Assembly: GCA_022579005.1 (NCBI GenBank)
Contig: MU401457.1
Coordinates: 372,001 to 436,000, forward strand
Direction: 5' to 3'
Length of the DNA stretch: 64,000 nucleotides
DNA from: Poronia punctata
Lineage: Eukaryota; Ascomycota; Sordariomycetes; Xylariales; Xylariaceae
Shown here: positions 17,503-25,415 of the stretch, one piece after another
How the letters are laid out: every line of letters begins with the position of its first letter
How positions within the stretch are numbered: position 1 is the stretch's first letter
The notes under the pieces: generated by a model
Database searches by the model: none
Told to the model about the DNA's origin: nothing
The model's input: the letters and a program-made list of their open reading frames with translations, nothing else
Made by a program: the position numbers and the translations under genes

Positions 17503-18295
17503 ATGGCGCCCAAGATTGCAATCGTCTACGTAAGTTGCCTCTCTTTCTCTCTCACTTTAGGTGTGCCATACCAAAAATAGGAGGACATACCCTGTCTTCT
17601 TTCAGAGGGTGGGGTAAATATCTGTACTCCCAACCTAGACGGCCTTATTCATAAAGCTCGTCGCCATTATGTCATAAATTCAAAAACTAATCTGACTTCT
17701 TCAGTACTCCATGTACGGGCATATCGCCCAACTAGCTGCCGCCGAAAAAGCCGGCATCGAGAAAGCCGGCGGTACAGCCGACGTCTTCCAAATCCCCGAG
17801 ACTCTCCCCGAGGAGGTTCTCAAGAAGATGTACGCCCCCGGCCAATCCAAGGACGTTCCTCTCCTAGAAGACCCCGCCGTGCTCGAGCAGTACGACGCCT
17901 TCCTACTCGGCATCCCCACCAGATACGGCAACTTCCCCGCCCAGTGGAAGACGTTCTGGGACAAGACGGGCAAGCAGTGGGCCACTGGCGGCTACTACGG
18001 CAAATACGCCGGTCTGTTCGTCTCCACGGGCTCTCTGGGCGGCGGCCAGGAATCTACCGCCATCGCGGCCATGTCGACGCTTACTCACCACGGTATCATC
18101 TACGTGCCTTTCGGCTATACCAAGGCTTTCGCGCAGATGTCGGACCTCACGGAGATTCATGGCGGTAGTCCCTGGGGTGCGGGCACTTTTGCTGGTGCGG
18201 ATGGATCAAGACAGCCTAGCGCGAGGGAACTGGAGATTGCTACGATTCAGGGAGAGGAGTTTTATAAGACTGTTGCTAAGGCTTTCAGTGGCTGA
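17503..18295 (+). CDS. WrbA/Pst2-type flavodoxin-like NAD(P)H:quinone oxidoreductase
   Basis: Two exons: 17503-17529 (MAPKIAIVY) and 17705-18295, intron 17530-17704 (GTAAGT donor, TTCAG acceptor, phase 0), giving 205 residues, the normal length of this family. The FMN-binding phosphate loop is YYSMYGHI at the exon junction. Further family marks are GIPTRYGNFPAQWK, STGSLGGGQE, STLTHHGI and GGSPWGAGTFAG. Proteins of this group (WrbA; yeast Pst2, Rfs1, Ycp4; fungal allergen homologues) are tetrameric FMN enzymes that reduce quinones by two electrons and protect membranes from oxidative stress. The TGA stop at 18293-18295 is followed by CTG and by 58 further in-frame sense codons ending in a CaaX motif (separate entry). 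Convergent with the aminotransferase, whose stop lies at 18665. Confidence 0.92.
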
Positions 18296-18472
18296 CTGCA
18301 TGGCGGAGAGGAGGAGAAGGAAGAGAAGGTCGAGGTAGCGGTTGCGGTTGCCGAGCCGAAATCACAGACGGCTGAGAAGCAGGAAATACCTGTTGCTCCT
18401 ACTGCTCCTGCCGAGAAGAAAAAGGATAAAGGGGAAGGACCTTGTGGACTGCCTAAGTGTGTGGTCTTATAG
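18296..18472 (+). other. Candidate stop-codon readthrough extension ending in a CaaX box
   Basis: In frame with the flavoprotein, immediately after TGA (18293-18295), 58 sense codons run to a TAG at 18470-18472. The tail starts LHGGEEEKEEKVEV, continues Pro/Ala-rich, then KKKDKGEG, and ends PCGLPKCVVL. CVVL fits a CaaX prenylation box (final Leu favours geranylgeranylation), with a second Cys eight residues from the end and a Lys cluster before it, as in Ras-type anchors. The stop context TGA-CT resembles the leaky TGA-CTA signal known from fungal and animal readthrough genes, differing at the last base. No GT-AG intron of reasonable size that would remove the stop is visible. The alternative is a recent sense-to-stop mutation. 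Confidence 0.6.
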
Positions 18473-18664: not shown

Positions 18665-20038
18665 CTATCCCAAATACTCCCTAACATAACCCCCCAACCT
18701 CTCCAACGCACTCCTCAAAACCTCCGTCTCACAGACATACCCAATCCTCACAAACCCCCTAAAATCAACCCCTCTCCCGAAACATTTCCCCCCCGGAACA
18801 AACAAAACCCCTGTTTTCTGTAGCACATCCTTACAGAACTCCTCGTCATCAACCGGTTCCCCTTTTGCCGTCTTAAATCTAACAAAAGCCGTAGTACCAC
18901 CCTGCGGTCTCGTCCAATCACAAAAATCTCGGAAATCCTCTTCCACGAATTCCGTCATCAGCGCGAGATTTGTGCGCGCAAGCGCCATATTCCGAGCTAA
19001 TAACTTGTCTCGCGCGGATGTGAGAGCGTACCGCGCGACGGAGTCATCGATTAGGGAGACGCTTATGGTGGTGTAGTCTCGTGCGGAGGTTAGTTGTTTC
19101 ATGAGTGTTTGGGAGCGGGTTGCTATCCAGCCTAGACGGAGTCCGGCTAGGGACCAGGCTTTGGAGACGGAGGATGTGGATAGGATGAGGGGGTATGAAT
19201 GGGAGAGGGATAGGGTCAAAGCGGAAGGGGAAGGGGAAAGGGGGGAATGGAGGAGGGGACGGTAGACTTCGTCGGAGAGGATGGTTATGTTGTGTTTTTG
19301 GGCGATGGAGATTATTTGGGAGAGGATGGGAAGAGGGGTTATTGCGCCGGTTGGGTTGTTGGGGTTGTTGAGGACTAGCATCTGTTTTTTGAGGGGGGGG
19401 GGGTTGTTAGTAGGTGTATTTATTGTAGGTTTTCATTTATGGATGATGGAAAAGGGGGAAAAAGGAGAAAAAGAATGAGATTTAACACTCATAAGTGGAA
19501 ATTCGGAACGAACAGACAAAAAAGAAAAGAAGTAAAATACCTTGGTATTGCTCTTAATCAACTTTTTCAATTCCTCAATATTAGGCACATACCCATCCTC
19601 CTCCCTCAGCCTCCAAAGCGAGACCTCGGCACCCAGAGATTCCGGCACGGAATATAACTGCTGATACGTCGGATACACGCATATAACATGATCGCCTGGT
19701 CCGACGAGAGAGTAAAAGATGAGATGATTCGCAGCTATAGCGCCCTGGGTTATCAGGATGTCGTCCGCGGATAATGGACTCTCATTCTCATTCTCATTCT
19801 CATCATTATATAGAGCGGCGATGCCCCGGCGCAATTCCTCGGTTCCCCTTATCGCGCCGTATGTCAGCTTTGCTGAGAAGTCTATGATTGGTTTTGGTCT
19901 GCCGTCTGCAGAGTTCAATTCTTCGAGTTGCGAGATGGAGATTGAGGAAGAGCATGTCTCGGCTATGTTTAGGACGTCGGGTGTGTTTTCGTACGTGTCC
20001 ATCCATTGCTCTACGTCGAAAGGTTGGATTTTGACCAT
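18665..20038 (-). CDS. PLP-dependent aminotransferase, class I/II fold
   Basis: Two exons on the minus strand: 20038-19541 and 19381-18665, intron 19382-19540 (GTATTT donor, AACAG acceptor, phase 0), giving 404 residues. Fold type I marks in order: AKLTYGAIRG; GAIAANHLIFYSLVGPGDHV (cofactor-binding region); NNPNNPTGA at about 171; SDEVY at about 202 (Asp contacting the pyridine nitrogen); SSVSKAWSLAGLRLGW with the Schiff-base Lys at about 240; and a C-terminal FVRIGY containing the Arg that binds the substrate carboxylate. It resembles the fungal aminotransferases annotated as ACC-synthase-like or capreomycidine-synthase-like; the substrate cannot be read from sequence. The intron carries a G/C homopolymer of about 11 next to the acceptor. 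Confidence 0.9.
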
Positions 20039-21994: not shown

Positions 21995-24900
21995 ATGTTT
22001 CTGCCGGCTGCGCGGTTACTCGCATTGGGGGCAGTGTCCCTATCATGCGTTGTTGCCGCCCAGAAGAATTACACGCAGGTTGATATGTTGCGAGCGCAGT
22101 TGGCCTTGATGGGCGATAGACCGGGCAATTGTCCTCCATGGTAAGCCGTGCTATTTGTACGCGTGGAAATACAACAGTTCAGACGCTGACTTGCGGTCTA
22201 CTACAGCTTCAACTGTCTGCTCCCGGCATACGAATGCGGCCAGTTCGCCGACTGCAACGAGTACAACGGGAAGTGCGAGTGTCCGGCCGGTTTTGGAGGA
22301 GATGATTGCCTACAGCCAAGTTCGACCACCCATATGCCACTACCTGTTTTTGGACTACGTACTAACAGGTGAACAGCATGCGGCTCCCTGGGACGCGGAA
22401 AAGACCGGCCTATTAGAGATGGCGACACTTGCGACTGTGACGAGGGCTGGACCGGTATCAACTGCAACGTCTGCACCGAGAACAAGGCATGCAACGCATT
22501 GATGGAAACTGGGGAGGATGGCGTATGCTACCAGAATGGCGAAGTCGTAAAAGAAAACTACCAGATGTGCGACGTCACCAACTCCAAGATCCTGATGATG
22601 CTGGAGGGCAAGATTCCCCAGGCGACTTTCATGTGCAACAAGGAGACTGGGTTTTGCGATTTCCAATGTGAGTGCTTTTTGCTATGTGTAGGCAATGGCT
22701 GCGCAACTTAGGTATTAACGTGAAATAGTCTGGGTCGACCGCGTCGAGTCTTTCTACTGCCACTTGGAGAACTGCGAATCAAGTGCCGACTTCACTTCGG
22801 ACCAGAACAGCACCTACTACACTTGTCCAAATGTGCAGTGTGGCTGCATCACCGACCGTTTCCTTTGCGGCCAAGACGGCTCTATCGATCTCACCGACTT
22901 CCTCAAAGAATCCGTCGAAGGTCCTGCCAGCTTTGAATGTCTGCAGAAGGGAGGCGGTGTAAACGTCTGCAAGTTCAAGGAACCCCAGCTAGATTGGATG
23001 GTCCAGAATATATTTGGAGACAGGAGCATCGAGTTGGAATGTCGATCCGGCGAATGTCTCTACCACACCGAAGTCCCGGGCTACCAACGACCCGTCAAGG
23101 TCATCAACACCCCCCTGATCGCCGGCGTTATTGCTGGCTGCTCACTGTTCATCGTCGCCGTTATTCTCGTGACTTGGTATCTTTCCCGGCGCCAGTACAA
23201 ATATGGGCCTATTAGCTTGGATGACTCGGACGACGAGGCTACAAAACTCATGACCGACCACAAACCTGCTACGCTCTATTTTGAGAATGTGTGCTACGGC
23301 TTGAACGGAAAATCCATTCTCAGCGACATCCGCGGGATTGCCCACCCTGGCGAAATTACCGCCATAATGGGTGCATCTGGCGCAGGCAAAACGAGCTTCC
23401 TGGACATCCTTGCTCGTAAGAACAAACGGGGGCACTTTACGGGCGATTTCTATGTAAACGGAGAAAAGGTTAGCGATGCCGACTTCAAGTCTGTTGTAGG
23501 CTTCGTCGATCAAGAGGATACCATGTTGCCCACCCTCACCGTACACGAGACGATCCTGACCAGCGCTCTTCTTCGACTACCCCGCCACATGAGCCGTGCT
23601 GCCAAGGAGCAGCGTGTCTACGAAGTAGAGAGACAGCTGGGCATCCATCATATCCGCGACTCTTTGATCGGATCGGAAGAGGGTAAAGGCCGTGGTATCT
23701 CTGGCGGCGAAAAGCGGCGCGTGGGTATCGCTTGCGAGTTGGTCACGAGCCCGTCTATCCTGTTCCTCGACGAACCTACCAGTGGTCTTGATGCCTACAA
23801 CGCGTTTAACGTAATCGAATGTCTGGTAACCCTGGCCAAGACTTATAAGCGAACCGTCATCTTCACGATTCACCAGCCGAGGTCCAACATCGTTGCCCTG
23901 TTCGATCGTCTCATTCTTCTGGCCCAGGGCAAGACGGTCTACTCGGGCCCCTTTTCACAGTGCCAGGAATATTTCGACGAAGTCGGTTATTCCTGCCCGC
24001 CAGGCTTCAATATTGCTGATTATCTTGTTGACCTGACCATGCACGCGAGCAGTGCAGGCGCGTTTGACGACGGAAGTGTCTTGAACGATACCGCTAGCAG
24101 TGTGGGCCCGAGCAGTACCCAAGCTATCAAGTCGGTGGCCAGCATTTCCGGCAGCAGCACAGCCGACGAGGGCTCCGTGGTCGAGTCGTCGTCTAGCCGA
24201 CCGAAAAACATGCGAAAGAATTCCATCAGGGCACGTCAAGAGCGTGAGCTCTTCACTCGGCGGAAACATACGGCTGATACAGCTGCATCGTCTGATGTCG
24301 AGGAAGAGGCCGGGGCATACAAGCTCCATAAACAACCGGCCGGTGTAGTGCCGCCCCAAATCATAGTCGAAGACGTTCATGATCTTCCTCCGGCCGCTGG
24401 AACCAATCTTGACTCGCTTGTCCATTCCTACGTGGAATCCGACATCGCGGGTGCTATACATGACGAGATTGCACAGGCAGTGACTGTTGCGCGAGAGGCA
24501 AATGGTCAAAATGGGGGCGTTGTAACCAATGGCAACGGCAGCGGCAGCGGCGGCGCCATCGGCCGAGGCTATGCCCGAGTTGGTTATACTCGCCAGTTCA
24601 TCATTCTGTCGCAGCGCACGTGGAGAAACCTTTATCGCAACCCTCTCCTGATGCTGACCCACTACGCCATTGCTATCGTCCTCGCCGTCCTCTCCGGATA
24701 CCTCTTTTATGGCTTGACTGATGACATTCCTGGTTTCCAGAACCGACTTGGCCTCTTCTTCTTCCTTCTGGCCCTCTTCGGATTCAGCACGCTGACCAGC
24801 TTGAACGTCTTCGCATCGGAACGACTATTGTTTGTCCGTGAGCGAGCGAATGGCTATTATTCGCCCATCACCTATTTCACCGCCAAGATCCTCTTCGACA

Positions 24901-25415
24901 TCATACCGCTCAGGATCATCCCCCCTGTTATTATGGGAGCCATCATATACCCCATGACTGGTCTGATACCGGACGCGCCACATTTCTTTACCTTTATGTT
25001 GACCTTGGTGCTCTTCAACCTCGCGGCCGCCGGCATTTGCTTCTTCATCGGCATCGTCTGTAAAGATGGCGGGGTGGCTAACCTCATCGGCAGTCTTGTC
25101 ATGTTGTTCTCCTTGTTGTTCGCAGGTCTGCTGCTAAATCACAACAAGATACCGGACGCAGCGCTCTGGCTACAGTCGCTTTCGATCTTCCATTACGGTT
25201 TCGAAGCCCTTATCGTCAACGAGGTCGTCACACTCACGCTGGTGGACAAGAAGTATGGGTTGGACATCACAGTGCCTGGTGCCGCTATTCTGAGCTCATT
25301 CGGGTTCGACAATGGGGCCAAGTGGATGGACATTGCCAATCTCGGCATCTTTGCTGCCGTCTTTGTGGTGCTGGCGTACACGGCGATGCATTTCTTGCTC
25401 GTAGAGAAGAGGTAG
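21995..25415 (+). CDS. ABCG-family half transporter with extracellular EGF-like region (Adp1 type)
   Basis: Four exons: 21995-22140, 22207-22319, 22377-22667, 22729-25415; introns of 66, 57 and 61 nt with CTGAC, CTAAC and TTAAC branch sites; 1078 residues. Order: signal peptide (about 1-22); Cys-rich extracytosolic part with EGF-like [12 protein letters not shown] and [12 protein letters not shown]; a membrane helix at about 312-335; the nucleotide-binding domain with Walker A GASGAGKT (about 398-405), signature ISGGEKRR (about 507) and Walker [14 protein letters not shown] (about 527); a variable Ser-rich and acidic linker; then the ABC2-type membrane domain with about six helices from residue 820. 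The layout matches yeast Adp1 and its filamentous homologues. The substrate is unknown. Convergent with mS26. Confidence 0.93.

Follow-up and report, generated by a model that had tools for sequence, protein, structure and literature searches.

A possible UGA-CU readthrough that would supply a CaaX box to a WrbA/Pst2-type quinone reductase of Poronia punctata

Yeasts provide a precedent for the protein considered here. The Ycp4 proteins of Candida albicans and Saccharomyces cerevisiae combine a WrbA/Pst2-type domain with a C-terminal extension. In C. albicans, this extension is reported to be ~90 amino acids long with a CAAX box at its end, and GFP-Ycp4 made from a strong promoter is described at the plasma membrane (PMC4556627). 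The same report also places Pst1, Pst2, and Pst3, which do not have the Ycp4 extension, at the plasma membrane, and thus an anchor is not strictly needed for this location (PMC4556627). S. cerevisiae Ycp4 is described as having 49 extra amino acids, is thought to be probably dimeric as opposed to the tetrameric Pst2, and is said to be palmitoylated (PMC7943015). One source lists it with Ras1 and Ras2 as a substrate for palmitoylation by Erf2 (PMC5364179), and another gives residue 243 as a UniProt-annotated palmitoylation site, in a table that holds no experimental site for it (PMC3929663). A sequence-only reading of the present locus, which proposed that stop-codon readthrough may add a prenylation anchor to a quinone reductase, had compared the gene with membrane-associated flavodoxin-like proteins of yeasts; the extension and CAAX box of Ycp4 (PMC4556627) and its listing as an Erf2 substrate (PMC5364179) bear this comparison out.

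The second group of described systems involves leaky stop codons. In Ustilago maydis, UGA followed by CU is reported to be the central motif for efficient readthrough, and a sufficient one; it is also reported to work in human cells, with an A in the third place further raising readthrough in HeLa cells (PMC4207609). In some fungi, GAPDH, PGK, TPI, and RPE have readthrough isoforms (PMC3798809, PMC4207609); for example, GAPDH of Aspergillus nidulans is reported to gain a peroxisomal targeting signal (PTS1) by readthrough (PMC4973966). Prenylation has also entered this literature: a farnesyltransferase signal is predicted for the readthrough extension of Drosophila Syx17 (PMC3840789), and human readthrough extensions have been screened for prenylation sites (PMC4359377). 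The earlier suggestion that a CaaX box supplied by readthrough would be new therefore has to be narrowed, as the Syx17 signal had already been predicted (PMC3840789); what stands is that our literature search, in which subscription journals were thinly covered, returned no experimentally shown case of a CaaX box added by readthrough, and no report of readthrough for the WrbA/Pst2 family.

We analyzed a 64-kb window (G000:C4:372001-436000) and searched the genome to which it belongs (45.05 Mb, 573 contigs). Its short introns, its genes, and the similarities of its proteins indicate a filamentous ascomycete; a search of the genome for 5.8S rRNA gave no match. Judged on its sequence, the end of the quinone reductase gene in this window is best explained by functional UGA-CU readthrough, to which we assign a probability of roughly 0.55. 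The relevant features, in window coordinates, are these:

17503..17529, plus strand: first exon of the gene for the flavodoxin-like quinone reductase (MAPKIAIVY), its reading frame continuing in exon 2 beyond a GTAAGT...TTCAG intron.
17530..17704, plus strand: intron 1, with donor GTAAGT, CTGAC near its 3' end, and TTCAG, from the sequence.
17705..18295, plus strand: exon 2, the remainder of the WrbA/Pst2-type domain, ending ...YKTVAKAFSG-TGA, from NCBIfam and PDB matches.
18293..18298, plus strand: stop codon in a leaky context, TGA-CTG, from the sequence and the UGA-CU motif of Ustilago maydis.
18296..18472, plus strand: 58 further codons in frame, closed by TAG; the encoded extension is acidic at first, then rich in Ala/Val/Pro, then Lys-rich, from the sequence, codon score, and shuffles.
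18443..18445, plus strand: upstream Cys codon, a candidate palmitoylation site, from the sequence, with its role inferred from Ycp4.
18458..18469, plus strand: CaaX box CVVL directly before TAG, from the sequence.

The gene model, with its two exons and one intron, was read by eye, and the short product computed from it has 205 amino acids, a mass of 21.98 kDa, and no cysteine. A 196-residue query scores 184.9 bits against NCBIfam model TIGR01755 (cut-off 132.5; residues 1-191) and 191.5 bits against NF002999 (cut-off 141; residues 1-192), such that the family-model cut-offs for WrbA-type NAD(P)H:quinone oxidoreductases are passed over nearly the full length. The best solved relative is yeast Pst2 (PDB 5mp4, E 3.4e-73, 59% identity). 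The gene product is, by sequence, a WrbA/Pst2-type NAD(P)H:quinone reductase with predicted enzyme activity. The last residue aligned with Pst2 (197/198 of Pst2) is the Lys of TVAK, after which come four more residues and then the TGA. Alt a 7 of Alternaria, a YCP4/flavodoxin homologue, is listed at 22 kDa in a review (PMC10219211), and with both the Pst2 alignment and this size in hand, the stop position of the short form looks, if weakly, ordinary for the family. The short product ends at the TGA (18293-18295) at what looks like a normal length for the family, as the sequence-only reading had it.

The gene appears to be the single representative of its family in the genome. A search with the protein and a TIGR01755 search each returned one place, and no second family gene was found in the 45.05 Mb by either search, both of which score best candidates only, such that a distant second gene could escape them. 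In a bacterial genome collection, 8 WrbA loci are 42-49% identical and are uninformative for the tail, and two scans of viral contigs returned no relative. As for the surroundings of the gene, a convergent neighbor of two or more exons on the minus strand (window 18665-20038), which we take to be an aminotransferase, ends ~190 bases after the TAG of the tail, and a large ORF at window 22998-25415 presumably encodes, by its motifs, an ABCG-type ABC transporter.

Beyond the TGA, the same frame stays open for 58 sense codons (18296-18469) and closes at TAG (18470-18472), its end being TGT GTG GTC TTA TAG. The tail, of which TAEKQEIPVAPTAPAEK is a part, has only two cysteines, residues 50 and 55 of 58, and the upstream one lies five residues before that of the CaaX box; the open frame, the CVVL end, and the second Cys that had been described are all there in the sequence. 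Two features expected of a readthrough gene are thus present, namely UGA followed by CU (18293-18298) and a coding-like extension that ends in a predicted targeting signal, here a CaaX motif. As a Ycp4-like gene the locus is ambiguous: the extension and CVVL follow the domain in frame, but behind a TGA. No Pfam or NCBIfam model matches the tail, even with E values of up to 1 allowed, and no second copy of the tail was found in the genome. Four bases past the TGA, an ATG opens a short overlapping frame in another phase (MAERRRRKRRSR, window 18300-18338).

Is this tail coding sequence? We derived codon log-odds from 264 kb of the genome, with its 52 long ORFs as the training set. On this scale the tail scores 0.235 bits per codon, which is central in the distribution of 406 coding windows (mean 0.222, sd 0.135), whereas the 52 windows that come after long ORFs have a mean of -0.134 (sd 0.150). 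Just one of these 52 matches the score of the tail, and because an 819-codon open frame continues after it, that window looks like an exon end rather than a gene end; more generally, long-ORF ends include exon ends, which means that this set of post-stop windows is a mixture rather than 3' UTR alone. None of the five other frames of the tail exceeds 0.13. Among 5000 dinucleotide shuffles of the tail, 120 were open and 83 scored as high, but none did both. The GC content drops from 54% in the tail to 36% in the next 188 bases. Third-position GC falls along the gene, from 0.88 in mid-core to 0.42 in core codons 161-200, with 0.69 in the first half of the tail and 0.31 in the second, so there is no sharp break in composition between the end of the domain and the tail. 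The tail is very likely real coding sequence, and its composition is protein-like, as was originally noted.

These numbers bear on the simplest competing account, in which the downstream frame is untranslated and both its openness and its CVVL end are due to chance. Open frames of at least 58 codons are not rare after long ORFs (7 of 52, some of them exon ends), and across a genome of 45 Mb with many genes, a CaaX end that arises somewhere by chance is expected and would not be surprising. To gauge how often this happens, we counted open stretches in 264 kb in all six frames. A strict CaaX motif, C-[VIL]-[VIL]-[LMFSQACT], ends 11 of the 8016 stretches of at least 20 codons and 1 of the 1722 of at least 58 codons, the one being this tail, which agrees with the earlier remark that a CaaX box directly before the next stop is unlikely by chance; a looser motif ends 38 of 8016 and 12 of 1722, respectively. 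The CVVL end draws its weight from being joined with coding-like sequence in a family known for CaaX tails. With a codon score like that of coding sequence, no shuffle that equals the tail, a drop in GC after the TAG, and known CaaX tails in the family all opposing it, we regard a chance frame as quite improbable.

If the tail is coding, a more serious competitor to readthrough, and in our view the main one, is a recent stop in an ancestrally long, Ycp4-like protein, introduced by a nonsense change or by a base error in the assembly, with the tail as a fresh relic. Such an origin would explain the coding-like tail and intact CaaX box without any recoding, and long forms do exist in yeasts. The TGA, however, is located where short relatives end, both by the Pst2 alignment and by the 22 kDa of Alt a 7; it has a TGA-CT context, which is found after just 1 of the 52 long ORFs; and the tail is without visible decay. 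A frame error is unlikely because the core of the domain and the tail are in one frame. On balance, a derived stop strikes us as unlikely, though worth serious attention.

The stop context itself deserves a closer look. That TGA followed by CT is a known leaky context holds true, given the sufficiency of UGA-CU in U. maydis (PMC4207609), and the single TGA-CT among the 52 long-ORF ends is at the apparent exon end that the 819-codon frame follows. The third base after the stop is G (CUG, not CUA), which counts against readthrough, and no unusual RNA structure was seen near the stop in two 111-nt folds (z -0.80 and -0.07). We also inspected four other enzymes of this genome, GAPDH, PGK, TPI, and RPE, whose counterparts have readthrough isoforms in some fungi. 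The GAPDH gene ends TGA-CTA-CCC-AAA-CTA-TAA, and readthrough would add X-Leu-Pro-Lys-Leu:

L010 1288-1271 (G000:C299), reverse strand: end of the GAPDH gene, TGA-CTA, where four codons, the last three for Pro-Lys-Leu, separate the TGA from a TAA.

PTS1-like signals have the consensus [SAPC][KRH][LM], and 84 of 20212 open stretches end with it. A peroxisomal GAPDH isoform made by readthrough, like that of A. nidulans, is likely. The PGK gene ends TGA-AGG and the RPE end seems to be TAG. The TPI gene (L041, reverse strand, G000:C140) ends VDIINSKL-TGA-GGA, with a PTS1-like SKL in its ordinary frame, an end that depends on our reading by eye of the last short intron; a TPI end at a TAA was rejected, as that TAA is intronic. 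A second TIM-like gene ends in TAG. TGA-CT is thus present at one of the four enzymes, GAPDH, as expected from A. nidulans, which suggests, without proof, that UGA-CU readthrough may be in use in this fungus; that three of the four are without it counts against readthrough.

Another route to the long form would be alternative splicing that removes the TGA, as with A. nidulans PGK and U. maydis GAPDH; splicing and readthrough are reported to interchange among fungi (PMC4973966). At this locus, the stop is overlapped by a branch-point-like CTGAC, and its removal in frame would be possible with 238 GT/GC-AG pairs. In the best 12 of these 238 pairs, however, the donors are imperfect (e.g., GTGCGG), the acceptor region is purine-rich (0 to 39% pyrimidines), and excision would cost ~33 or more C-terminal residues of the domain, including conserved motifs; most of the domain is spared by the 47 pairs whose donor lies at 18240 or beyond, and the best of them reaches 9 of 12 consensus points. 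The real intron 1, in contrast, has GTAAGT, CTGAC, and TTCAG. Splicing around the TGA, which the sequence-only reading had wanted checked, has best-ranked candidates that are either weak or domain-breaking, and it seems to us very unlikely. We rejected a spliced targeting isoform, having found among these best-ranked pairs no good set of donor, branch point, and acceptor that removes the stop while sparing most of the domain.

RNA editing is a further means by which stop codons can be overcome; for example, the UAG stop of hepatitis delta virus is overcome by A-to-I editing. Here, editing of UGA to UGG would open the tail. In Fusarium graminearum and Neurospora crassa, hundreds of genes are reported to undergo stop-loss editing in the sexual stages (PMC11156358). 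Fungal A-to-I editing, described in Sordariomycetes and one Pezizomycete, strongly prefers a U before the A (PMC11156358), as in UAG and UAA; with G before its A, UGA is a poor site, and we hold editing to be extremely unlikely.

We return, then, to readthrough. As we picture it, most ribosomes would terminate at the UGA to give a soluble, cysteine-free enzyme of 205 residues, and some would decode the UGA of UGA-CUG as an amino acid and continue into a 58-residue charged, probably disordered linker that ends in Cys-Val-Val-Leu. A CaaX box with Leu as its last residue directs a protein to geranylgeranyltransferase I, and it is probably this enzyme that would prenylate CVVL; the Cys upstream of the box may be palmitoylated. 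Matches to PF00432, the repeat found in prenyltransferase beta subunits, lie at six places in this genome, spread over three contigs. A minor, membrane-anchored form of the enzyme would be positioned near membrane quinones, and a single gene would provide the short and the long form that yeasts encode separately, as Pst2 and Ycp4. We infer the readthrough itself as well as the lipid attachment, localization, and function of the long form; given both readthrough and a functional CaaX box, a membrane-anchored isoform would follow. More tentatively still, and with less than even odds, programmed UGA-CU readthrough may, in filamentous ascomycetes with a single gene of this family, yield a prenylated plasma-membrane form in place of the separate Ycp4 of yeasts, in which duplication would have split the two forms. 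There is a parallel in yeast IDP3, which was reportedly preceded by cryptic peroxisomal signals, in that case by frameshift (PMC4526572).

If true, this would be the first shown lipid anchor supplied by readthrough, as far as the literature searched goes. Most of the fungal readthrough isoforms in the literature examined here are peroxisomal. With a CaaX anchor, the same mechanism would also serve to attach an enzyme to membranes, and termination efficiency would determine how much of the anchored form is made. The isoforms of such a gene come from a single transcript and are missed by annotation built on transcripts; further extensions with lipid anchors may therefore be hidden.

How does the locus compare with known systems? 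Among the closest are the PTS1 readthrough systems (Tpi1, Art1, and Rpe1 of U. maydis and MDH1 and LDHB of animals, all with UGA-CU, and GAPDH of A. nidulans), which share with it a leaky stop, an in-frame extension with a C-terminal targeting signal at its end, and, as we propose here, a dual location for a metabolic enzyme. They differ in that the signal is PTS1 (peroxisome) rather than CaaX (membrane); in addition, the 58-codon tail is long, and readthrough here is predicted. Drosophila Syx17 shares a readthrough extension with a predicted prenylation signal, but that prediction stands in a table of ribosome-profiling extensions and concerns an unrelated animal protein. In the large form of the hepatitis delta antigen, overcoming a stop likewise adds a prenylated tail, although this system is viral and works through RNA editing of UAG. 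In domain and extension, and for C. albicans in the CAAX box also, the locus resembles Ycp4, whose tail lies in the main frame of a separate gene, whereas the tail described here lies behind the stop of the only family gene found. Readthrough at this stop would pair recoding in one species with separate genes in another for the same two forms.
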